A DNA stretch of 31,173 nt, from positions 1 through 31,173 of IMG/VR virus record IMGVR_UViG_3300006735_000008, one strand, 5' to 3'. This stretch comes from a virus. Position numbers and translations under genes: made by a program. The notes below the pieces were generated by a model, which saw nothing but the letters and a program-made list of their open reading frames with translations, was not told the origin of the DNA and made no database searches. Positions 1,862 through 12,820 of the stretch are shown piece by piece. Each line of letters opens with the position of its first letter. The stretch's first letter is position 1.

Positions 1862-2213
1862 TTACGTTAATTTTGATTTCACTTATTTGTTCACTGTTAG
1901 ATTTTAAATCAATTTCTTGTCTCTCCACATATCCTCTTTGTTTCCCTTTAGTCTTGAGATAAAATATGATTGACGTTTCTTTGTTGTTTTTTATGTTGTC
2001 TAACAGTTTTGATTCCACATAATCAAATTGTACATTTTGTAATTCATCAACACTGTTCTTAAAATCTTCATCTGTTTTAATCCAATCGTAATATGTGGTA
2101 CGACCTATTCCTGAGATTCTACAAGCTGTTGATACTACACATAAAGTCTTTTCAAGAGCTTCAAGCATAGCCTTCTTTTTTATGTGTTCGGATTTGTTCG
2201 GTTGTTTTGTCAT
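1833..2213 (-). CDS. terS: Terminase small subunit
   Basis: This 126-aa DNA-binding subunit recognises the packaging site and hands DNA to the large subunit. Residues 14-55 form a helix-turn-helix typical of phage small terminases (TACRISGIGRTTYYDWIKTDEDF). A helical oligomerisation segment follows (YVESKLLDNIKNNKETSIIF), then the characteristic FYLKTKGKQRGYVER stretch near 84-98. The start ATG overlaps the stop of the upstream dioxygenase gene by four bases, and the 3' end overlaps the large subunit, the usual small-then-large order. The assignment is based on this motif pattern and the position next to terL. Confidence 0.92.
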   Translation of the reverse strand: MTKQPNKSEHIKKKAMLEALEKTLCVVSTACRISGIGRTTYYDWIKTDEDFKNSVDELQNVQFDYVESKLLDNIKNNKETSIIFYLKTKGKQRGYVERQEIDLKSNSEQISEIKINVIEKTRPTDN

Positions 2214-3025
2214 AATCTTTTGTGTTCTCGTTGTTTTTTCAATTCTCTGATTCGTAGCAATTCGTCATCTACTGTTTCGCATTTCCACATTTGTTCCAGT
2301 GTATAATATACTATTGTGTATCTGTAACCTTTTGCGTGTGTTTTTATTATTGGTGTAACTCCGTGTATAATTTGTTGACCGTCAAATATCAAAAGATAAT
2401 CGTTGTCAATTTCAAATTTAAGATTATATTCAGGACATACCAAACGTCCTCCTGTTATACCGTTCTTAAAACACAGCATATTGCTTAAAACACCTTTAAA
2501 ATTGCCTTTGTCTGTATGATATCTTAGCTGATTATTTTGGTTTATTATTCCTGATGTAAAAGGCGTATCTGTTATTGTCCAATCTTTTTTCACCTTCTCT
2601 TTCACTATTTTGTAATGTTCTTTTAGTATATGTGGAAAGTATTCTTGATAGTAATTTGTTAGAGTTTTGCCGAAGTTTGTTATGATACTGTGTTGTTTGG
2701 GATAATCTCTTGCTGTTGTTACAGTGTTACAATAATCTTGTCTCAGCACTCGTCTTGGCATAAATCCGAACAGCTTTGATTTGCCTAGTTGTTTCATATA
2801 TGATGTACGGTTTGATTTAGCGTATTTCATAGAACGGACCGCCCAGTGTACGTCTTCTGTGTTCTCTTTTATCTTTTTGTATAAAATTATAGGTTGCCCA
2901 TTGTAATTTACAAGAGTATCTTCATTGATTAATCTTGTGGAGTCCTTTTCTGTGGCGAATTTCTTTTTGTATTCTTTTATATCAAGGATTTTATAATCTT
3001 TGTCTGTTAAATTAATTGTATTCAT
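2210..3025 (-). CDS. 2-oxoglutarate/Fe(II)-dependent dioxygenase, TET/JBP-like
   Basis: This 271-aa protein has a double-stranded beta-helix dioxygenase core. The iron ligands are visible as H170-x-D172 (RYHTDKGNFKG) and H221 (IIHGVTPI), with R235 (GYRYTIVYYT) as the likely 2-oxoglutarate anchor. A GGRLVCPEY turn and a DYLLIFDGQ strand lie between them. The HxD, GG.L, LLIFDG, HGV.PI, RY order resembles the TET/JBP family, which oxidises the methyl group of thymine or 5-methylcytosine in DNA. I infer that it hydroxylates a pyrimidine base in the phage DNA, most simply thymine to 5-hydroxymethyluracil, because no cytosine methyltransferase is seen in the window. The roughly 160 N-terminal residues are basic and may contact DNA. 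It overlaps both the amino acid:DNA transferase-like gene upstream and terS downstream. Dioxygenase fold is confident; substrate is inference. Confidence 0.75.
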   Translation of the reverse strand: MNTINLTDKDYKILDIKEYKKKFATEKDSTRLINEDTLVNYNGQPIILYKKIKENTEDVHWAVRSMKYAKSNRTSYMKQLGKSKLFGFMPRRVLRQDYCNTVTTARDYPKQHSIITNFGKTLTNYYQEYFPHILKEHYKIVKEKVKKDWTITDTPFTSGIINQNNQLRYHTDKGNFKGVLSNMLCFKNGITGGRLVCPEYNLKFEIDNDYLLIFDGQQIIHGVTPIIKTHAKGYRYTIVYYTLEQMWKCETVDDELLRIRELKKQREHKRL

Positions 3026-3866
3026 ATAGGTATTTATTTTGAAAGGTTTCCGCGCGAAAATCCCATAACACAGACCAATCTACTCCTTTTATGTGTTTGT
3101 AATGTTCTATCTCTTTGCCTAGTCTATCAATGTAATATCCCACATATCTTTTGCCTAGTCTATATTTTTTGTAAGCGCACAGTGTAGTTTCTATTTGAAA
3201 TATATCTCCTTGATGTTTTGTTTTTATGCTGAGGAATTCTCTCTGTAATGTGTTAATCTCTTTTTTTGTTAGTTTCTTTTTACTGTGGTGATTCATTAGG
3301 TCTGTTCTTCCAATGGCGTAAGCTAAACCGTTGCGACAAGATTTTGCCTGTGATAAATCAAGGGTGTGAGGTTCGCATTTTAGGTTTGTTATTCGGTTCA
3401 AAGTATCTAAGTAGTTAAATAGTGAAAATCTGCCAAAATAAGCAATTTTAAGAGCCTTTTGGTATGTTAGTTGATAGTTGTATTGCTTATCGTCTTTTAT
3501 CCCGTTAAAGAACAAATTTTGTTGGTTATTTTGCACTAACTGTTTATAACTGATGAAGCTCTTTACAAACTGATTATTGCTCTTGATTCTTAATCTGTCT
3601 GTCTGAAATTTTAAATGTGGTCTATTGTTTGTCCACCAATTTTGTAATCTGTGTAAATCTACGTTTTGATAATCAGGGAATTCATTGTACATAAAAAATA
3701 CTGTTGGAGCACAGTAACAGGTCCCGTACAAAAAAGCAATCCAATATCTCTGTTCCATATTTAGCTCAAATCTGTTAGCTATATAATCTAAACAGATGAT
3801 TGATGGGTCCACGTCCCTAGCTTTCATCATATCGTTATGGTATTCAGTGTAGGATTTAATACTCAT
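3012..3866 (-). CDS. Probable amino acid:DNA transferase / thymine pyrophosphorylase-family protein
   Basis: This 284-aa all-helical protein contains an aromatic-rich core with QRYWIAFLYGTCYCAPT (residues 39-55), NEFPDY (61-66), a W-W-N-NRP segment (77-83), KFQTDRLR (86-93) and SFISYKQLVQNNQQ (103-116). From memory this pattern resembles the phage families predicted to swap activated 5-hydroxymethyluracil for an amino acid or polyamine (amino acid:DNA transferases and alpha-glutamyl/putrescinyl-thymine pyrophosphorylases). The context supports that: a TET/JBP-like dioxygenase is encoded directly downstream and a glutamine amidotransferase directly upstream, all with overlapping ends. The role in base hypermodification is an inference. 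A remote DNA glycosylase-like fold is possible. I cannot identify catalytic residues with certainty. Confidence 0.55.
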   Translation of the reverse strand: MSIKSYTEYHNDMMKARDVDPSIICLDYIANRFELNMEQRYWIAFLYGTCYCAPTVFFMYNEFPDYQNVDLHRLQNWWTNNRPHLKFQTDRLRIKSNNQFVKSFISYKQLVQNNQQNLFFNGIKDDKQYNYQLTYQKALKIAYFGRFSLFNYLDTLNRITNLKCEPHTLDLSQAKSCRNGLAYAIGRTDLMNHHSKKKLTKKEINTLQREFLSIKTKHQGDIFQIETTLCAYKKYRLGKRYVGYYIDRLGKEIEHYKHIKGVDWSVLWDFRAETFQNKYLYEYN

Positions 3867-4449
3867 ATCTTTTCAGTGGTTCTAATTCTTCACAGTCCTT
3901 TATTCCTGACCTAGCAAATATGTCTCTTGTGGAAGCTATGTAAGTACAATTATTGTGTTTTGTTTGATAGGCAGGACGGTTTTCATTCCTTATTGCGCAC
4001 AATCTGTTATTTTCAATATATACACAAGCAAAGGAATAGTCCTTGTGATTTAATATGTTATCATCATATAATTTTTGTATCAAAACATATCCGTCATTTT
4101 CGTTGGGTATTTTGACCTCAAACTCACTTTCCATACCGATTGTTGACTTCATAGACAAAACGCCATTAAACGCCAAATTAATTGCCTTAAATTGTAAAGG
4201 CTGGTTGTTATTTAAGTCTTTATAGTCTCCACTTGTAGAATATCGGCAGTGTCCTATTAACAGTGTTGTATCAATGTTTTTAATTTTATTAATCATCTTT
4301 TGTAGGCTATGTGTTTTGTAAGTCTCTATATTTCCCTTGTGTAAATATGATATACCAAAACAGTGTAGTCCTCTTATTTTTGACTGATAAAATATGTCTG
4401 ATAAAAGTTTGTTGTCAATATGTCCAATAGCTCCAATGATAGAACACAT
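3856..4449 (-). CDS. Stand-alone class II glutamine amidotransferase (Ntn hydrolase)
   Basis: This 197-aa protein begins MCSIIGAIG, which exposes the N-terminal nucleophile Cys2 after methionine removal. The glutaminase signature follows in order: GHCRYSTSG (residues 66-74, with R69 contacting glutamine), NNQPL (81-85) and FNGVL (94-98, N95 and G96 forming the oxyanion hole). The domain has the usual size of a GATase2 and there is no synthase domain. It should hydrolyse glutamine and pass ammonia to a partner. The neighbours suggest that the partner belongs to a DNA base modification pathway, not purine or glucosamine synthesis. The start codon overlaps the ParB stop as TAATG and the 3' end overlaps the next gene by 11 bases. 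The catalytic assignment is strong; the acceptor is unknown. Confidence 0.85.
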   Translation of the reverse strand: MCSIIGAIGHIDNKLLSDIFYQSKIRGLHCFGISYLHKGNIETYKTHSLQKMINKIKNIDTTLLIGHCRYSTSGDYKDLNNNQPLQFKAINLAFNGVLSMKSTIGMESEFEVKIPNENDGYVLIQKLYDDNILNHKDYSFACVYIENNRLCAIRNENRPAYQTKHNNCTYIASTRDIFARSGIKDCEELEPLKRYEY

Positions 4450-5060
4450 TACAATCCAACACCGTTACTTTCGTGTTTCACTGATTGTTGTAAGTAAAAA
4501 TCTATACAGTGTTTTATTACTGATGAATTATCGTCTGTTTCAATTTCTTTCGCCACAATATCTAGTTTCGCTAACATCTCTGGGTATTCTTCACTGTCGT
4601 AATACAAAACAATCTGTTTTATTTCGTTTTCAAGATATGTGTCAAGCTCCTCTTTTAAATCGTTTTCTTCAACATCAGGCTCGTCACCAATAGCTAGTTC
4701 CCAATTTTCAAATCCCCACTGTATTAATTCTTCAGTGTCAAACACGTTTGCTAACATATCAAAATCAAACTGTCCAGTGTTTTTATTTAACCTAACATTG
4801 AGCTCACGTTCTCTGTTAATGTCTAAATCAACCTCAACACAGGGGACCTCTTTATATCCCAAATCCTTAGCAACTCTGACTCTTTGGTGCCCTCCTACAA
4901 TAATGTTTTTACGTTCCTTGTTTACGTTCACAATAATTGGGTCTACAAGACCGAAAGTTTGTATTGATGTTTTAAGCTGTTCATATTGATTTTTTTTCAA
5001 CATTCTCGGATTGTAGTCCGCCATTATCAGTGTACTAATTTTTTTATTGATTATTTTCAT
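4449..5060 (-). CDS. ParB/Srx-like nuclease-fold DNA-binding protein
   Basis: This 203-aa protein has the N-terminal ParB/sulfiredoxin domain: YNPRM (residues 16-20), the helix with TFGLVDPIIVN (35-45) and GGHQRVRVAKDLGYKEVPC (56-74), where the GGHQR box binds nucleotide. The C-terminal half is acidic (DEPDVEENDLKEELDTYLEN) and lacks the chromosome-partition HTH module. Phage proteins of this shape are commonly encoded in DNA-modification gene clusters beside methyltransferases or other base-modifying enzymes. Here it leads a tightly coupled run of four genes ending at terS. A role in recognising or processing DNA for modification is inference; plasmid-type partitioning is unlikely because no ParA is present. 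Confidence 0.8.
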   Translation of the reverse strand: MKIINKKISTLIMADYNPRMLKKNQYEQLKTSIQTFGLVDPIIVNVNKERKNIIVGGHQRVRVAKDLGYKEVPCVEVDLDINRERELNVRLNKNTGQFDFDMLANVFDTEELIQWGFENWELAIGDEPDVEENDLKEELDTYLENEIKQIVLYYDSEEYPEMLAKLDIVAKEIETDDNSSVIKHCIDFYLQQSVKHESNGVGL

Positions 5061-5626: not shown

Positions 5627-6146
5627 TGATATGTTTTTTTATTTTATTAATGCTGTTATATAACGTGTTTCTGTTTATTCCTGTTGCTTTTGATAACGTG
5701 TTGAGAGAATGTCCCCACATTGTGTATAACTTAAAAACTTCTGCGTCAAACCAATTACACTGTTGTAAAATTTCTTCAGCTTTTTTTATGTTTATTTCAA
5801 GAGTTTCTTTGTCTTGTATTTCGGTATCTTTTTTGTGAGGAATTAGCCACTGTTCGTGCCAACTATTCATATCAAGATTGCCGTCAATTTTCTGATAATA
5901 CCTCTTGTATTTGTAAAAAAATGGAGATGTTTTACTGTGGTATTGATTTACCATAATTCTCACAATATAATATATCAGTGTTTCTTCTCTGATTAATTTA
6001 CTTATTTTGTCGCAGTCAGATTCGTAAAGAATTAAAACGGTCTCCTGTAATAAATCTTCACAGTCATTGTTTTTTGTAATTTTCTTTGAAATATCTTTTA
6101 ATTTCTGAAAATTATCTTCAACAAATATATCTAGTATTTTACACAT
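5607..6146 (-). CDS. Sigma-70 family-like (ECF-type) transcription factor
   Basis: This 179-aa protein resembles small ECF-type sigma factors. Residues about 20-60 look like region 2 (NDCEDLLQETVLILYESDCDKI, with the polar-acidic helix typical of core RNA polymerase binding). Residues 140-175 form a region 4 helix-turn-helix (LYTMWGHSLNTLSKATGINRNTLYNSINKIKKHI). It could redirect host polymerase to phage late promoters, which fits the lack of TAnnTTTG elements in front of the tail genes. Region 2 is weakly conserved, so a sigma-derived regulator that does not start transcription is an alternative. Confidence 0.65.
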   Translation of the reverse strand: MCKILDIFVEDNFQKLKDISKKITKNNDCEDLLQETVLILYESDCDKISKLIREETLIYYIVRIMVNQYHSKTSPFFYKYKRYYQKIDGNLDMNSWHEQWLIPHKKDTEIQDKETLEINIKKAEEILQQCNWFDAEVFKLYTMWGHSLNTLSKATGINRNTLYNSINKIKKHINGRKKD

Positions 6147-6445
6147 AAACTAGCTAACAAAGGTACATATTTTTTTAACTCCTTAAATTCCTGTGTTGAA
6201 ATCGGGTGAGTAATTATTTCTAACACTGATTCGTTTTTTCTTAAAAACGGCAGTATTTGTTCCTTCATTAATGTGTTAGTGAACGCAAAATATCTGTGTT
6301 CAATTATATTTCTGTACAAATCTCTGTAAATAAAATTCATTTCACGACCTTTGTCAGTGTAAATTGTTAACAATAGTTTGTTAGCATTCATTTTTTTCAG
6401 TGGGTTTTTAGGTTTACTATAATTTTTGTATGAGTAAAAGTTCAT
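6131..6445 (-). CDS. Hypothetical protein, 104 aa
   Basis: I do not recognise this protein. It is basic at the N terminus (YSKPKNPLKKMNANK) and has several aromatic residues in FIYRDLYRNIIEHRYFAF. Its ATG overlaps the stop of the VRR-NUC gene as ATGA, and its 3' end overlaps the sigma-like gene by 16 bases, so it is translated as part of the same message. No signal peptide or membrane helix is evident. Confidence 0.65.
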   Translation of the reverse strand: MNFYSYKNYSKPKNPLKKMNANKLLLTIYTDKGREMNFIYRDLYRNIIEHRYFAFTNTLMKEQILPFLRKNESVLEIITHPISTQEFKELKKYVPLLASLCVKY

Positions 6446-6807
6446 AATTTCTGTGATAAGTATTTTTCAATAATTGACACTGTTTCATCATATCCTTTGC
6501 TTACACAAGCATAATATCCTCTGTTATTTAAAGATTTTATCCATTGTTTTTGTTCTTTTGTGGCGTAACACTTTTTGTCTTTTTTTAACTCAATAGCTAG
6601 TCCACTGTAACTTCCACAAGGTTCGTAAATAAACAAATCAGGAAATCCTTTGACGTATCCTGTTGCCTTCATCATTTTTGCCATATACATTGATGACACT
6701 CTCATTCCTCCCGCAGACGCACAATATAACAGCTTAGGGTATTTTAAATTGAGGTATTTTATAACCTGTGATTGTACAAATGATTCTCCTCTTAATCTAA
6801 TCATCAT
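6442..6807 (-). CDS. VRR-NUC family nuclease
   Basis: This protein of about 121 aa is a PD-(D/E)XK-type VRR-NUC endonuclease. Visible motifs are the initial helix (GESFVQSQVIKYLNLKYP), SAGGMRVS, GFPDLFIYEP (the metal-binding Asp), GLAIELKK (the E-x-K pair) and the closing TKEQKQWIKSLNNRGYYACV. Phage members act on branched or flap DNA in replication and recombination. The frame stays open to 6918, but that would overlap the zinc-ribbon gene by 122 bases. The ATGATG at 6802-6807, overlapping the upstream stop, is the natural start. The core fold starts a few residues later, so nothing is lost. Confidence 0.88.
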   Translation of the reverse strand: MMIRLRGESFVQSQVIKYLNLKYPKLLYCASAGGMRVSSMYMAKMMKATGYVKGFPDLFIYEPCGSYSGLAIELKKDKKCYATKEQKQWIKSLNNRGYYACVSKGYDETVSIIEKYLSQKL

Positions 6808-7060
6808 AAAAAGTTTCAGAGGCGTATCCCTTCCAACAATTATCACTACAATATCCGTCTTCGTCCCACTCAGGAAATTCTTCACCACAAAATTTACACA
6901 TTGCGTTTCTTTGTTCACAGTATTCGTAACATTGTGAACACATTTCTATATCTGTTATTACAGGCGCTCCACAACAATTGCTTTCGCCTTCGGTTTCAAG
7001 ATTATATTCACCTATCAAATCAGGTCTTTCATATAACTTCTGTTTCAATTCTTTTTTCAT
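6797..7060 (-). CDS. Cysteine-rich zinc-ribbon protein, 87 aa
   Basis: The protein carries CCGAP, C-x2-C-x3-C (CSQCYEYC), C-x2-C (CKFCGEEFP) and CSDNC. That gives two or three zinc knuckles, the last resembling the zinc ribbons found near the C termini of host-derived proteins. It is acidic overall, so protein-protein contact is as likely as DNA binding. Both ends overlap their neighbours (a small zinc protein and the VRR-NUC nuclease). This places it in the replication and recombination operon. Confidence 0.75.
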   Translation of the reverse strand: MKKELKQKLYERPDLIGEYNLETEGESNCCGAPVITDIEMCSQCYEYCEQRNAMCKFCGEEFPEWDEDGYCSDNCWKGYASETFYDD

Positions 7061-7212: not shown

Positions 7213-7989
7213 TTACTGTGTTCTTTTTTTTCTCCATACCTGTCCTGCTGTTGGCGTATATACTGACTCCCAACCAATGCTTTTCAAGTGTTTATAGTAT
7301 TTGGTTTTTTCGTCTTCGTTCGGTAGCCTTCTACAAAATTCTCTGTCATAATACTCAGGATATTTGTTTTTACCACCTCCTGAACCATTAAAATTGTTCC
7401 GCGCCCACCTTCCTAATCTCAGTGACGTGTTCCACGTTTTTTGCATTTCAAATCTCATTTTTGTACCACTGGGATTCTTTTCACTCCAATACTCTATAAA
7501 CTCATCAAAATGGTCTTTATACTCCACATATTTTTTTACATCAGTTTTAAAAATTTCAAATCTAGTCTCTATATTAGAGATTTTATTTAAGTTGTTTTTA
7601 TTGTTATTCTTATTAATAGTTTTCGACTTTTTGAAATCTTGTTTCATAAAATCCTGCAAACTTGTTTTTAAAATTTTCTCAACTTGTTTTGCGTAAATCT
7701 TGTAATGAGTTTTAGCGGGTATACCTTTGACTTTTGTTTTGCAAATTTTACCACGTTTTAGCACTTCTAAGGCACTTTTACAACGATGATTGGTCAATCC
7801 TGTATTGACGCGAATATCGTTTGCCGTCTGCCAAAAAAAGCCATTATTTTCATTTATCAGATTATGTTCCTCACAATACAGATGTAGCTGTAATAAATGA
7901 GATAATAACACTGAAGCGTCTGTTCCAAGTTTCCTGATTAACTCTTTGTTGACAATCAAATAATGACTTGTGGTTAGTATATTATTCAT
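7213..7989 (-). CDS. Replisome organiser / DnaD-like replication protein
   Basis: This 258-aa protein has an N-terminal winged-helix region (residues about 10-95: LGTDASVLLSHLLQLHLYCEE, FFWQTANDIRVNTGLTNHRCKSALEVLKRGKICKTKVKG). A low-complexity Asn/Lys linker (about 120-140) follows. The C-terminal helical segment (FDEFIEYWSEKNPSGTKMRFEMQKTWNTSLRLGRWARNNF) resembles helicase-loading domains of phage replisome organisers. It should bind the origin and recruit the host helicase. I chose ATG at 7989, which overlaps the upstream stop by eight bases. The frame stays open to 8034, but the extra residues (MKVYRVMTES) lie inside the upstream gene. Confidence 0.7.
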   Translation of the reverse strand: MNNILTTSHYLIVNKELIRKLGTDASVLLSHLLQLHLYCEEHNLINENNGFFWQTANDIRVNTGLTNHRCKSALEVLKRGKICKTKVKGIPAKTHYKIYAKQVEKILKTSLQDFMKQDFKKSKTINKNNNKNNLNKISNIETRFEIFKTDVKKYVEYKDHFDEFIEYWSEKNPSGTKMRFEMQKTWNTSLRLGRWARNNFNGSGGGKNKYPEYYDREFCRRLPNEDEKTKYYKHLKSIGWESVYTPTAGQVWRKKRTQ

Positions 7990-8515
7990 ATTCTTCATCA
8001 TATAACTTTCTGTCATCACTCGGTAAACCTTCAACCATACTTTGCAACAATTCAGGATAATTTAGCAAAATATCTCTTTCATCAGAATCTAATACATCAA
8101 GGTCCTCAAGGTCGCTCATAACCTCAGACAATTCACTGTAGTCGTATCTTATGTGGTCAATCTCTCTAACATCAATATCGTTGATGTAAAATTCTTCACA
8201 CACATATTCCAAATCAACAGAGGTATCAATATATATGTGTCCGCATTCAAAATCTCCATCAACCAAACAATCGTTTATTTTCTCCTGTAATCCTTCCGCA
8301 TATTTGAAAACGCTTTCAGTGATACAATCGTATAACTTCCAATCTCCACCATAATGTATGAAAAGTTCGTAACCGTCTGCTGATGATTCCTCTATAAATA
8401 TATGATGATAAGCTCCATTTTTATATGACAACGCTGTGTCAGAATTAAAATCAAAGGCAATATCCTTCTCAAGCTCAACCAACTGTATATATGATTCAAT
8501 TTTTTCTCGTTTCAT
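7982..8515 (-). CDS. Very acidic protein, possible DNA mimic
   Basis: Of 177 residues about 48 are Asp or Glu and only about 15 are Lys or Arg, spread over the whole length with aromatic residues between them. I do not recognise the family. Such composition is known in DNA-mimic proteins that block restriction enzymes or nucleoid proteins. A gene for an ArdC-like antirestriction protein lies 1.8 kb upstream in the same operon. The start codon follows hammerhead ribozyme 1 by 25 bases and is preceded by an ACACAG block. DNA mimicry is inference from charge only. Confidence 0.6.
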   Translation of the reverse strand: MKREKIESYIQLVELEKDIAFDFNSDTALSYKNGAYHHIFIEESSADGYELFIHYGGDWKLYDCITESVFKYAEGLQEKINDCLVDGDFECGHIYIDTSVDLEYVCEEFYINDIDVREIDHIRYDYSELSEVMSDLEDLDVLDSDERDILLNYPELLQSMVEGLPSDDRKLYDEEYE

Positions 8516-8534
8516 TTCTGTGTTTTTTAAGTTA

Positions 8535-8587
8535 AATACTGACCGCCATTTCAGGCGGTTTCGGTCTTATGACCTCATCAGAGTATT
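8535..8587 (-). ncRNA. Hammerhead ribozyme 1 (type I)
   Basis: On the minus strand the conserved core is complete. Stem I 5' strand AATACT (8587-8582) is followed by CTGATGA (8581-8575). Stem II is GGTC-ATAA-GACC (8574-8563), then GAAA (8562-8559). Stem III is CCGCC-TGAAAT-GGCGG (8558-8543), then T (8542) and the cleavable C (8541). Stem I 3' strand AGTATT (8540-8535) pairs perfectly with the 5' strand. Cleavage is predicted between 8541 and 8540. The TAA stop of the upstream SSB-like gene (8588-8586) overlaps stem I, and cleavage leaves a 25-nt leader on the acidic-protein gene. Confidence 0.93.
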
Positions 8588-9022: not shown

Positions 9023-9262
9023 TTATAATTTTTTAGTTAATAAGATGTCAGTAATTTCTGTGTTTAGAATGGCGCTGACCTTCACCATTTCTGTCAGTGT
9101 AAAATCTTGTGGACTTTCTAACTTAGTTTTCAGTGTAGGATATGTAACACCTAGTTTTTCTGCAAAATCTTTCAGTGTTATTTTATTTTCCAATCTGTTT
9201 AAAATCAAATAGTCTTTCAATTCTTGTCCCGTTTTTATTCTGTAATTTTTTTCAATAAACAT
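9023..9262 (-). CDS. Small XRE/Cro-like helix-turn-helix regulator
   Basis: In this 79-aa protein residues 28-70 form a Cro/C1-type helix-turn-helix (ITLKDFAEKLGVTYPTLKTK, then FTLTEMVKVSAILNTEITDIL). The short length suggests a DNA-binding domain without effector domain, as in phage Cro-like or early repressors. It is the first gene after the 121-base intergenic region that carries two inverted copies of a GTGCCTTA-type element, so it may bind there and regulate its own transcription. That link is inference. Confidence 0.8.
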   Translation of the reverse strand: MFIEKNYRIKTGQELKDYLILNRLENKITLKDFAEKLGVTYPTLKTKLESPQDFTLTEMVKVSAILNTEITDILLTKKL

Positions 9263-9824: not shown

Positions 9825-9843
9825 ATAATTTATTTGTTGATTA

Positions 9844-9899
9844 ATAACAGACAAGGGACCTTGTCCCCTGTTTCGTCCTTATGGACTCGTCAGTGTTAT
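9844..9899 (-). ncRNA. Hammerhead ribozyme 2 (type I)
   Basis: Minus-strand elements in order: stem I 5' ATAACA (9899-9894), CTGACGA (9893-9887), stem II GTCC-ATAA-GGAC (9886-9875), GAAA (9874-9871), stem III CAGGGGA-CAAGG-TCCCTTG (9870-9852, one G-U pair), T (9851), cleavable C (9850), and stem I 3' TGTTAT (9849-9844), fully complementary to the 5' strand. Core position 7 is C, which the CUGANGA consensus allows. The TAA stop of the upstream gene (9898-9896) is inside stem I. Confidence 0.92.
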
Positions 9900-10261
9900 G
9901 CCCAATTATTTTCTCCGTATCTTTTCACAATTTCTTCATCATATATCGTAGATTTTCCATTTTTTTCAATATCATTTCTGATAACGTCCTCCCACCAACG
10001 GATTCCTAATGTCATACGCTTAACTGAAAAACTTGGTATATCATCATTGTGAACATAAAAAAACAAATCTTGCCTGTTTTCTCCATTGTCTAATGTTATT
10101 TTTGTGATAATTACAGATTCAAATTCAATCCTTGCTCCCGTTTCTAGCTTGAAAAAGTCTCTTAATTTGTCTGATGATTGCCCACCTAAATTGACGCCTT
10201 CCCAAACACATAATTGTCTGTAATCGTTTTCTAACTTGTGTACTATTTTCTTGTTTTTCAT
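9896..10261 (-). CDS. Hypothetical protein, 121 aa
   Basis: I do not recognise this family. The protein contains CVWEGVNLGGQSSDKLRDFF, a segment with paired beta strands (ARIEFESVIITKITLDN, QDLFFYVHNDD) and a conserved-looking RWWEDVIRNDIEKNG near the end. The frame extends to 10297, into hammerhead 3, but ATG 10259-10261 lies 26 bases after the predicted cleavage site behind TTTACACAG and is the better start. It sits between two ribozymes, so its mRNA should be released as a single-gene unit. Confidence 0.65.
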   Translation of the reverse strand: MKNKKIVHKLENDYRQLCVWEGVNLGGQSSDKLRDFFKLETGARIEFESVIITKITLDNGENRQDLFFYVHNDDIPSFSVKRMTLGIRWWEDVIRNDIEKNGKSTIYDEEIVKRYGENNWA

Positions 10262-10281
10262 CTGTGTAAATTTTTTAGTTT

Positions 10282-10357
10282 GTAACAGACCGCCCACTTA
10301 AAATATGACTTATTAACCTGTGGACGGTTTCGCCTATAAAAGGCTCATCAGTGTTAC
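10282..10357 (-). ncRNA. Hammerhead ribozyme 3 (type I, long stem III loop)
   Basis: Minus-strand elements: stem I 5' GTAACA (10357-10352), CTGATGA (10351-10345), stem II GCCT-TTTAT-AGGC (10344-10332), GAAA (10331-10328), stem III CCGTCCAC/GTGGGCGG (10327-10320 and 10297-10290, eight pairs with one G-U) closed by a 22-base A/T-rich loop. Then come T (10289), cleavable C (10288) and stem I 3' TGTTAC (10287-10282), which pairs perfectly. The ArdC stop codon TAA (10356-10354) is within stem I. Confidence 0.92.
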
Positions 10358-11349
10358 TTATTCAATATAAATTCAACCGCTTTCTGTGATTGTTGAGACG
10401 CAAAAAACACTTCTTTTTCATTATCCTTCTTTTTTAAATGTGTTATCCAACCGTTAATGTACGCCTGTGAATTTGTCATATCGTCTTTTGGCTCTAAACC
10501 TAAAACACCACATAAAAACAACGAACCTAATTCAGCAACAAGCTCCTCTTTGGCATACTCCTGTTTTTTCTTTGAAGGAGAATTTACAGTGGCTTTCATT
10601 AAAGATTCTCTGTTTAGTATTGATTCGTGTCCTGTACTGTGTATCATTTCGTGAAACAGTGTTTTATAGTAATCGTCAGACCTTCCTGTTTTATCAGTAA
10701 AATTTTCTTTGTTAGGCATCTGAATATGGTGGCTGTTTACTTTGTAAAACGCTCCTGTTCCACCGTGTTTCAGTGTAGGTTTTTTAGGCATATTTGCGTA
10801 AACCGATTCTGCGTCAGTGATAGGTTCAAAAATTGTATCTTTTACAGCTTCATCTTTAATCTCTTGTGGTAAATAATCTATTCCCTCTGTTTGAGACAAA
10901 TTATATACAGTGTAATATCTCTGAGACCATACAGCATTAACACCTTTAGTCTTTTTGTTTACACCTGATGGCAAAGATTTTTCATTGGGGTACCACTTGT
11001 CTTTGTAGAAATAAGAACACAAGGAATATATGACAGGAAATCCTTCTGCGTCTTCGTTCAGTGTACCACCAATCTCTTTGATTTTTTTATATGTGATAAA
11101 CTCAGGAGTGTTAAAATTGTTTGTCCACATAGCTATCTGCATTAACCAATAGTTAATTCCTGTGTAAATCTTTTTAGAATCATAACTAATAGCGGGGATA
11201 TCAGGTGACATTCCGTGTTTTGTACTCCAAGGACGAACCCAATTCAAGCCTTCCTTCTCCAATCCTTTCACAATATTGTCTGTTATTATTTCGTGAATTG
11301 ATTTACCTGTTTTTTTTCTTGGTGTCCATTTAAATTTTTTAGTTTTCAT
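10354..11349 (-). CDS. ArdC-like antirestriction protein (ssDNA-binding N-domain plus zincin)
   Basis: This 331-aa protein has the two-part ArdC layout. The N-terminal domain (about 15-155: IHEIITDNIVKGLEKEGLNWVRPW, YTGINYWLMQIA, FITYKKIKEIGG, YTVYNLSQTEG) matches the ssDNA-binding half. The C-terminal metalloprotease-like domain carries HEMIHSTGH (residues 233-241, the zinc-binding HExxH) and YAKEELVAELGS (265-276, third ligand). ArdC-type proteins shield entering DNA from type I/II restriction. It is flanked by hammerheads 4 and 3. Its leader AAAACTTAATTTAACACAG is the best match to the 5' end of the plus-strand short RNA at 11748-11816. Confidence 0.85.
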   Translation of the reverse strand: MKTKKFKWTPRKKTGKSIHEIITDNIVKGLEKEGLNWVRPWSTKHGMSPDIPAISYDSKKIYTGINYWLMQIAMWTNNFNTPEFITYKKIKEIGGTLNEDAEGFPVIYSLCSYFYKDKWYPNEKSLPSGVNKKTKGVNAVWSQRYYTVYNLSQTEGIDYLPQEIKDEAVKDTIFEPITDAESVYANMPKKPTLKHGGTGAFYKVNSHHIQMPNKENFTDKTGRSDDYYKTLFHEMIHSTGHESILNRESLMKATVNSPSKKKQEYAKEELVAELGSLFLCGVLGLEPKDDMTNSQAYINGWITHLKKKDNEKEVFFASQQSQKAVEFILNK

Positions 11350-11370
11350 ATCTGTGTTAAATTAAGTTTT

Positions 11371-11428
11371 ATTACTGACCGTCACAAGGACGGTTTCGCC
11401 ACCTTTCAGTGTTGCTCATCAGAGTAAT
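11371..11428 (-). ncRNA. Hammerhead ribozyme 4 (type I, bulged stem II)
   Basis: Minus-strand elements: stem I 5' ATTACT (11428-11423), CTGATGA (11422-11416), and stem II from 11415 to 11398, which pairs as GC-CAC/GTG-GC with an AA bulge and loop TGAAAG. GAAA (11397-11394) follows, then stem III CCGTC-CTTGT-GACGG (11393-11379), T (11378), cleavable C (11377) and stem I 3' AGTAAT (11376-11371), perfectly paired. The core is intact; the bulged stem II makes this the least regular of the four. The upstream stop codon touches stem I at 11428. Confidence 0.85.
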
Positions 11429-11595
11429 TAAATTAAATCTATTGCTGATTCACCTGTTATGTCCCCGTTTTTGGTAATTTCATAATTTGGGTCCATACCT
11501 GATATTTTGATGTCGTCAATTAAATCTTCTATTGTTGTAAATTCTTTTGTGTAATATACACAGTCTAAAGAGTAAAAGTTTTCAGTGTTTTTCAT
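11428..11595 (-). CDS. Small protein, 55 aa, first gene of ribozyme operon
   Basis: The frame from ATG 11593-11595 to TAA 11428-11430 encodes MKNTENFYSLDCVYYTKEFT and ends TGESAIDLI. I do not recognise it; it looks like a compact alpha/beta protein with an acidic helix (TIEDLIDDIKISGMD). Support comes from position: it follows a TACCTTTG promoter element at 11632-11639, and its stop codon abuts hammerhead 4 exactly as the other three hammerheads abut upstream stops. Too short for common ORF thresholds. Confidence 0.65.
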   Translation of the reverse strand: MKNTENFYSLDCVYYTKEFTTIEDLIDDIKISGMDPNYEITKNGDITGESAIDLI

Positions 11596-11631
11596 TGTTA
11601 TATGTGTTAAAGTGTTAGTTAATTATTTCTA

Positions 11632-11639
11632 CAAAGGTA
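11632..11639 (-). promoter_or_regulatory. Candidate -7 element TACCTTTG for the ribozyme operon
   Basis: The minus strand reads TACCTTTG, an exact TAnnTTTG box of Bacteroidetes housekeeping promoters, about 36 bases before the 55-aa gene. A TTG at the -33 position is not evident. The upstream side is A/T-tract DNA (11642-11675) that may substitute as an UP-like element. Confidence 0.5.
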
Positions 11640-11641
11640 CG

Positions 11642-11675
11642 TAAAAAAATTTTAATAAACCTAAAAAAATTTTAA
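11642..11675. repeat. A-tract/T-tract direct repeat, 14 bp x 2
   Basis: TAAAAAAATTTTAA occurs at 11642-11655 and again at 11662-11675, a 20-bp period close to two helical turns. Phased A-tracts bend or destabilise DNA. The repeat lies between the minus-strand promoter and the plus-strand promoter, so an UP element or a duplex-unwinding element of an origin are both possible. I see no iterons to favour the origin. Confidence 0.6.
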
Positions 11676-11713
11676 CTTTTTTTATCTACCACATATAGGA
11701 AATTAACAATGAT

Positions 11714-11743
11714 TTGCTGTGTAAATAATTTTTTTTATATTTG
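11714..11743 (+). promoter_or_regulatory. Plus-strand Bacteroidetes-type promoter
   Basis: TTG at 11714-11716, then exactly 19 bases, then TATATTTG at 11736-11743: a full match to the TTG-N19-TAnnTTTG consensus of Flavobacteriia housekeeping sigma factor. It is the best promoter in the window and points against all the protein genes. About 33 bases after the box the transcript reaches a strong terminator, so its product is a short RNA. Confidence 0.8.
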
Positions 11744-11747
11744 TGTA

Positions 11748-11816
11748 AACTGTGTAAGTTTAAGTTTTCTATGTGAAAGAGTCGTTGCCAATTCGGTTTG
11801 ACGGCTCTTTTTTTTT
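11748..11816 (+). ncRNA. Plus-strand short RNA, about 65-70 nt
   Basis: The RNA is defined by the promoter ending at 11743 and the terminator ending at 11816. No open frame is present. Its 5' end, CTGTGTAAGTTTAAGTTTT (11750-11768), is complementary to the leader of the ArdC gene (AAAACTTAATTTAACACAG, about 11353-11371 minus): 9 pairs, then a mismatch, a G-U and one pair, another mismatch, then 6 pairs. It also partly matches the leaders after hammerheads 1 and 3 through ACACAG and AACTTAA blocks. That suggests a trans-acting regulator of translation start. The exact start site is estimated. Confidence 0.7.
11776..11816 (+). terminator. Rho-independent terminator of the short RNA
   Basis: AAAGAGTCGT (11776-11785) pairs with ACGGCTCTTT (11801-11810) over ten pairs with one G-U. 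The loop is 15 bases, and the T run 11808-11816 (nine T) follows directly. It is strong on the plus strand. On the minus strand the stem is followed by only three T, so lysis-operon messages may pass. Confidence 0.88.
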
Positions 11817-11950: not shown

Positions 11951-12820
11951 CTAGATTAAGGCTCTGGCTGTGGTATTCACAATAGTTTTGTTTTTTTCTT
12001 TGTATATATCAGCAACCATTTCAAAACAGCCTAAAGGCTTTGGAGGACGTCCACGCTCTATGTGGTAATCCATATATCCGTCACCATATTCTTCTTTGTA
12101 GGTCCCTGCTCTTAAATGAAGAATGTTTTTCAGTTCTACATTGTTACGAACGTTAAGCGTTTCTACTGTGTAATACATCTGATATAATTCGTGTACGTGT
12201 CCTAGAACAAAACAGTCCGCTCCACTGACGCTTGTCATAATACGATTATTTTGTATTGTTCCTTTTGTCACTGGTCCTCCTCCTCCTGAGCCGTGAAAAT
12301 ACTTTATTTTATATGTGTAACCAAAATCTCCTTTTGTGTAATTATATTTTAAAACAAACCAACCTCCATAACCTCCTGTGTATATTTTAGATTGATTTGT
12401 GTAATTAAATAAATCTACAAAACGCTGTAATGGGTCAGTTTCTTGATGAGATAATATGCTTGTTTCGTGGTTACCATATCCTATCACTGTCAAAACATCT
12501 TTATAGGGAGACCACCAATCAACAGCGTCACTGATAACAGCGTCAAGATAATTTTCTTTATTGTGTTCAGGTCTGATATTGTTTTTACGTTTTCTTGGGT
12601 CGTATTTTCCTTGCATAAGACAGAAAAAATCACCATTAATAAACACAGGTATTTTATTTGCAAGTGCGTAATCCATATGTTTTTTTAACAGAGACCTATC
12701 ACAATGAGGATTATCCCAGTGTACATCAGACATTATTAGTATTTTGTGTTGGTTTAAATCTTTGTAATCAAAGTCAAACTCTAATCTGTGTACGTTTCTG
12801 TTTAATTCTTGTAATTTCAT
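11951..12820 (-). CDS. Calcineurin-like metallophosphoesterase
   Basis: This 289-aa protein has the full dimetal phosphoesterase motif set in order: SDVHWD (31-36), NGDFF (62-66), GNHE (116-119), HGSGGG (176-181) and GHVH (207-210). Together these bind two metal ions and hydrolyse phosphodiesters or phosphomonoesters. Phage relatives include nucleases and nucleotide phosphatases; the substrate cannot be told from sequence. Speculatively it might process 2',3'-cyclic phosphate or 5' RNA ends created by the ribozymes downstream. The start overlaps the upstream membrane-protein stop as ATGA, and the gene closes the lysis operon before the control region. Confidence 0.88.
   Translation of the reverse strand: MKLQELNRNVHRLEFDFDYKDLNQHKILIMSDVHWDNPHCDRSLLKKHMDYALANKIPVFINGDFFCLMQGKYDPRKRKNNIRPEHNKENYLDAVISDAVDWWSPYKDVLTVIGYGNHETSILSHQETDPLQRFVDLFNYTNQSKIYTGGYGGWFVLKYNYTKGDFGYTYKIKYFHGSGGGGPVTKGTIQNNRIMTSVSGADCFVLGHVHELYQMYYTVETLNVRNNVELKNILHLRAGTYKEEYGDGYMDYHIERGRPPKPLGCFEMVADIYKEKNKTIVNTTARALI

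Follow-up and report, generated by a model that had tools for sequence, protein, structure and literature searches.

A candidate short RNA beside a phage hammerhead cluster: the probable remnant of an early transcript

The DNA analyzed here, which we call the window, is an IMG/VR virus record of 31,173 bases from a marine phage, and all the predicted phage genes we searched or compared lie on its minus strand. Reading the other way, next to a row of predicted hammerhead ribozymes and an ArdC-like antirestriction gene, is a candidate short RNA whose open 5' end can pair with some of the leaders that the ribozymes would release. Our reading is that this RNA is probably a product of the phage family's divergent early promoter, left in place after a small-protein operon vanished from behind it. 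An earlier note had proposed something more purposeful, namely that the RNA regulates several ribozyme-separated genes at once, by blocking or helping their translation. Parts of that proposal stood and parts did not, as we describe below.

The short RNA and the operon it faces

Promoters of Bacteroidota carry a -7 box, TAnnTTTG, at -12 to -5 (PMC9723704). The putative promoter of the short RNA (11713..11743, plus strand) consists of TTTG at 11713-11716, a gap of 19 nt and TATATTTG at 11736-11743, which matches this box; given where the box sits relative to the start, transcription is predicted to begin near 11748. A transcript of ~69 nt (11748..11816, plus) would follow, made up of an open 5' end of ~25 nt and an intrinsic terminator, a hairpin of 15 pairs (-17.1 kcal/mol) and then a T run (11775..11811, plus). 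This is the strongest terminator of the plus strand in a scan of the window with a finder that allows bulges (a finder without bulges overlooked it), and no other promoter-plus-terminator pair was detected in the window. The RNA folds at -18.0 kcal/mol, more stably than shuffled sequences (z -3.2), with its 5' end mostly open. From the promoter to the convergent gene at 11951-12820, the window holds no plus-strand open reading frame of at least 40 residues. Judged by sequence, then, the RNA has what a stand-alone small RNA should have (its own promoter, an intrinsic terminator and no coding capacity), and it is credible as a transcription unit. When an exact 17-base word of it was searched elsewhere, there were 10 matches, and the contexts printed for them had no corresponding promoter or terminator.

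The RNA carries an AUG followed immediately by UGA (11771-11776), about as far from the promoter as some relatives have their first start codon. Could the transcript be a tiny mRNA, or the remnant of one? The candidates would be this AUG-UGA at 11771 or a GTG-started frame of 23 codons that runs from 11773 across the hairpin. The longer frame is open, and the similar spacing of the relatives' first start codons speaks for the idea. Against it, that frame crosses both terminator and T run and has no Pfam match, and we regard a coding role as highly improbable.

The promoter is also rich in one heptamer. TGTGTAA occurs at 11718, 11742 and 11751, the third copy lying inside the RNA itself, within the leader-complementary stretch CTGTGTAAGTTTAAGTTTT (11750..11768, plus). 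That third copy is absent from the aligned relatives, so the 5' sequence of the RNA is a peculiarity of this phage. Random placement seldom puts three copies within 40 bp (p 0.012), and two copies occur at the matching promoter in two relatives (L010 and L011). It could be that the heptamer acts as DNA, the promoter copies serving as operators for the helix-turn-helix (HTH) regulator and the leader copies being further operators or chance. We consider this very unlikely: most copies in the window sit inside genes, those in several relatives have diverged, and the control region contains another palindrome-like element as well, TTAACA...TGTTAA.

The predicted promoter of the ArdC/ribozyme operon points away from the short RNA and has its -7 box, TACCTTTG, at 11632..11639 on the minus strand. 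The first gene (11428..11595, minus) precedes the first hammerhead and encodes a small protein, for which tblastn finds homologues in 17 other viral contigs (53-69% identity). These contigs (L213-L229), several of which are long (174 kb at most), carry a family of ~50 residues with the pattern (M)YSLDC...GMDPNYEITKNG. Four minus-strand hammerhead motifs follow, with CUGA(U/C)GA cores at 11422, 10351, 9893 and 8581. In the motif scan, all four have a type I core (CUGANGA...GAAA...UH) and three stems, open at stem I. Three of the four take the hammerhead shape at minimum energy. None reaches its Rfam gathering threshold; the best is the motif at 9844..9899 (minus), which also folds and matches Hammerhead_1 at 30.9 bits (E 6e-4; gathering score 34). 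The motifs at 10282..10357 and 8535..8587 (both minus) come from the motif scan and the fold, with Rfam matches below threshold to the RAGATH-1 hammerhead and to HH9, respectively. The motif upstream of ArdC (11371..11428, minus; motif scan), with predicted cleavage at 11377/11376, has an atypical stem II. Its predicted activity is less sure because of an AA bulge in that stem and a different minimum-energy fold.

Each motif is followed by a short leader and a gene, all on the minus strand. The first leader, 27 nt long (11350..11376), contains AAAACTTAATTTAACACAG and precedes the ArdC-like antirestriction gene (10354..11349; PF08401, PF18818; phrog_7245). The second, of 26 nt (10262..10287), contains TTTACACAG and belongs to the open reading frame at 9896-10261. 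The third, of 25 nt (9825..9849), leads a winged-HTH gene. Farther along come a Cro/C1-type HTH regulator gene (9023..9262; PF13443) and the fourth leader, of 25 nt (8516..8540), which contains AACTTAA and ACACAG and precedes the open reading frame at 7982-8515. The earlier note had leaders of almost equal length, 25-27 nt, and predicted cleavage does give 27, 26, 25 and 25 nt from ArdC downwards. It was right, too, that the ACACAG block of the ArdC leader recurs behind other ribozymes, at 10262-10287 and 8516-8540. The winged-HTH leader is the one of the four that lacks it.

A promoter shared with related phages

The case for an inherited promoter comes from relatives. Eighty loci carry a terminase 66-69% identical to that of the window. 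Those that also have a homologue of the HTH gene at 9023-9262 have a divergent promoter, TTTTGTGTTAAATTTATTTTATATATATTTGTGTA, upstream of it, and in nearly all of them it reads outward into ATG-started protein-coding genes. In five (L010, L014, L057, L063 and L067), the rightward genes are separated from the promoter by 3-7 small open reading frames that form a leftward operon. We built a matrix from the promoters of 13 relatives, leaving the window out. Its top site in the whole window, on either strand, is the short-RNA promoter (11704/11706, plus; 22.5-24.0 bits); the next-best distinct site is the operon promoter at 11632..11639 (18.5 bits), and the best unrelated site reaches 12.0. The short-RNA promoter also aligns with those of the relatives, the best direct similarity having an E of 2e-7 in one record. 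Both its sequence and its position opposite the HTH gene agree with the relatives, where that gene faces the divergent promoter directly; in the window, the two are separated by the ArdC/hammerhead module. On these comparisons, we identify the short-RNA promoter as the family's conserved divergent early promoter. Since the promoter drives protein-coding mRNAs in relatives, the short RNA needs no dedicated origin as a leader-targeting molecule.

Counterparts of the ArdC/hammerhead module and of the short RNA were mostly lacking in what we searched. None of 43 related records, many being fragments, shows a hammerhead pattern, no counterpart of the short RNA was found in related loci, and no relative had both. 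Scans for close relatives returned none for ArdC or for the open reading frame at 7982-8515 and a single distant relative for the one at 9896-10261; tblastn also found no ArdC in the related loci.

How might the RNA have come about? In relatives, the promoter facing the Cro/C1-like regulator gene would yield an mRNA for a few small proteins. Here, that operon would have gone, leaving the ArdC/hammerhead module between the promoter and the regulator gene. Transcription from the old promoter would then halt after ~69 nt at the strong terminator, giving a small early noncoding RNA. The homology of the promoter, the synteny, the missing operon, the terminator and the potential for pairing can all be read directly from the DNA. 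What we infer is that the RNA is transcribed, that it is made early, that the HTH protein controls it and that the operon was lost here (rather than gained in relatives).

Predicted pairing with the ribozyme leaders

The pairing that the earlier note described is real enough as a duplex. We located CTGTGTAAGTTTAAGTTTT and reproduced its match to the ArdC leader: six pairs, a mismatch, two pairs (one of them G-U), a mismatch and nine pairs, hence 17 of 19 positions, at -15.3 kcal/mol and ending just before the start codon. Only 0.3% of other plus-strand windows and 0.7% of mononucleotide shuffles reach 17 of 19 ungapped pairs. From the ArdC leader downwards, the duplex energies with the short RNA are -15.3, -16.2, -8.0 and -12.9 kcal/mol, the weak pairing being that of the winged-HTH leader; cofolding gains 10-16 kcal/mol.

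The note had asked for such energies to be set against shuffled RNA. When the RNA's 5' end is dinucleotide-shuffled, the sum over the leaders stands out (p 0.019), but taken singly the leaders are borderline or ordinary (p 0.05, 0.03, 0.19 and 0.11). When 36 gene starts are ranked, the ACACAG leaders take the top three places (p 0.006 by shuffling, 0.001 against other plus-strand windows), and their mean differs from that of the other gene starts (p below 0.001); because the three resemble one another, they are not three independent matches.

These numbers are what give life to the regulatory alternative, in which the RNA is a multi-target antisense whose open 5' end pairs with the leaders that hammerhead cleavage frees upstream of ArdC and of two further genes, keeping ribosomes out and so holding those genes down at one stage of infection. 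The open 5' end, the strong terminator, the cofolding gains and pairing that spans the start region, as in GibS of Bacteroides (PMC7366714), all fit. Yet one of the four ribozyme leaders does not, and two genes with no ribozyme (6131-6445 and 6797-7060) come close to the third-ranked leader in their pairing. More telling is the rest of the coding strand. Counting the RNA's own complement, 77 of 3,892 minus-strand windows bind it as well as the ArdC leader does, and 16 distinct sites besides that complement out-pair every leader, one at -24 kcal/mol. The seed word itself is strand-biased, with 45 copies of CTGTGT in the window on the plus strand versus 10 on the minus. Leader pairing thus stands above shuffled controls when gene starts are compared, but it does not exceed what other parts of the transcriptome offer. 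It is modestly non-random, a signal confined to gene starts because so many coding-strand sites bind equally well or better, and it is suggestive, not decisive.

What, then, of the leaders themselves? TTTAAC, TTAACA and ACAGAT are enriched before the start codons of this phage, whether or not a ribozyme precedes them. In unrelated phages, 82 of 101 hammerheads lie within 60 nt upstream of a start codon, most commonly at 20-30 nt. We had weighed equal leader length as evidence for the short RNA and rejected it, as leaders of 20-30 nt commonly follow the hammerheads of unrelated phages. Shared leader words fared little better. Three other loci (L260, L288 and L313) have five or six consecutive hammerheads, with the word ACTATCAA, different from that of the window, in the leaders of nearly all the genes that follow, and the stretches examined have no such RNA; the argument is accordingly weakened. 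Eight loci from other phages that carry such clusters yielded no comparable short RNA, a further point against antisense action. Leader lengths of 20-30 nt and leader words that recur within one phage are both general where phage hammerheads come in clusters.

On our preferred reading, that of a leftover early transcript, the match would arise mainly because the leaders use common gene-start words (ACAGA, TTTAACA) and the promoter region is rich in TGTGTAA. The matrix ranking, the alignment, the synteny, the absent open reading frames, the CTGTGT bias, the common leader words and the usual leader lengths all point this way. Two observations pull against it: the third TGTGTAA copy is phage-specific, and the ACACAG leaders come first among gene starts beyond shuffled controls. 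That top ranking is not fully explained by a leftover transcript. Any regulation of leaders by covering the start region, in the manner of GibS, would be a later gain.

Where does this leave multi-gene regulation? The RNA, its open 5' end, the complementarity, the leader lengths and the best-pairing starts survive from that proposal; the family-promoter origin, the generality of the leader features and a strand-biased seed word with many rival sites count against it. All told, we judge an antisense acting on several leaders rather unlikely. Less likely still, in our estimation, is the bolder idea that an orphaned early promoter has been turned into a source of trans-acting RNA, controlling hammerhead-separated genes, ArdC included, through one leader word.

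Known systems and the wider window

Hammerhead clusters around antirestriction genes have been seen before. Those flanking ardA in prophages (Perreault et al. 2011, PMC3088659) are organized as here, several hammerheads separating single genes and an antirestriction gene directly behind one. In Agrobacterium tumefaciens, hammerheads flank ardA and the set cleaves in E. coli; in three Legionella strains, ardA lies behind a hammerhead (PMC3088659). Processing of long phage transcripts was proposed for these clusters, with cleavage demonstrated in vitro and in E. coli (PMC3088659), whereas the hammerheads of the window are predicted from sequence. Our locus also differs in having ArdC rather than ArdA, an AT-rich phage, Bacteroidota-type promoters, leaders that lack a Shine-Dalgarno sequence and a divergent short RNA. 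The cluster is a further member of this known group; the adjoining short RNA is its unusual part.

For the RNA itself, one close likeness is GibS of Bacteroides thetaiotaomicron (PMC7366714), also AT-rich, with a long open 5' end that can pair around start codons. GibS, however, is conserved and tested, whereas the candidate RNA here is phage-borne and found once. Lambda OOP RNA and P22 sar RNA (reviewed in PMC12197685) are likewise short phage RNAs from control regions. They act as antisense RNAs on one mRNA each, by established pairing (PMC12197685); the putative pairing here would be in trans, partial and with several leaders. Our search of the open-licence literature found no report of antisense RNA against ribozyme-released leaders.

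Why phage genomes carry hammerhead clusters is an open question (PMC6155905), and the locus offers a concrete arrangement to set beside it: predicted short leaders of near-constant length, words shared within the phage and an adjoining candidate RNA that could pair with these leaders. Should the RNA act on them, hammerhead cleavage would prepare targets for joint control. If it does not, the locus still shows how a conserved phage promoter can lose its operon yet keep a noncoding transcript.

Elsewhere in the window, a TET/JBP-type oxygenase (PF12851) sits beside an amino acid:DNA transferase (PF18724) at 2210-3866, a pair that looks like thymine hypermodification of phage DNA; PHROGs labels the oxygenase-like protein differently, as a queuine tRNA-ribosyltransferase. 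A ParB_N protein is encoded at 4449-5060. Several short words are scarce across the whole window (observed/expected: CATG 2/54.5, AATATT 1/25.9, CTCTTC 1/17.0 and TCGA 3/21.9), which possibly reflects avoidance of restriction.
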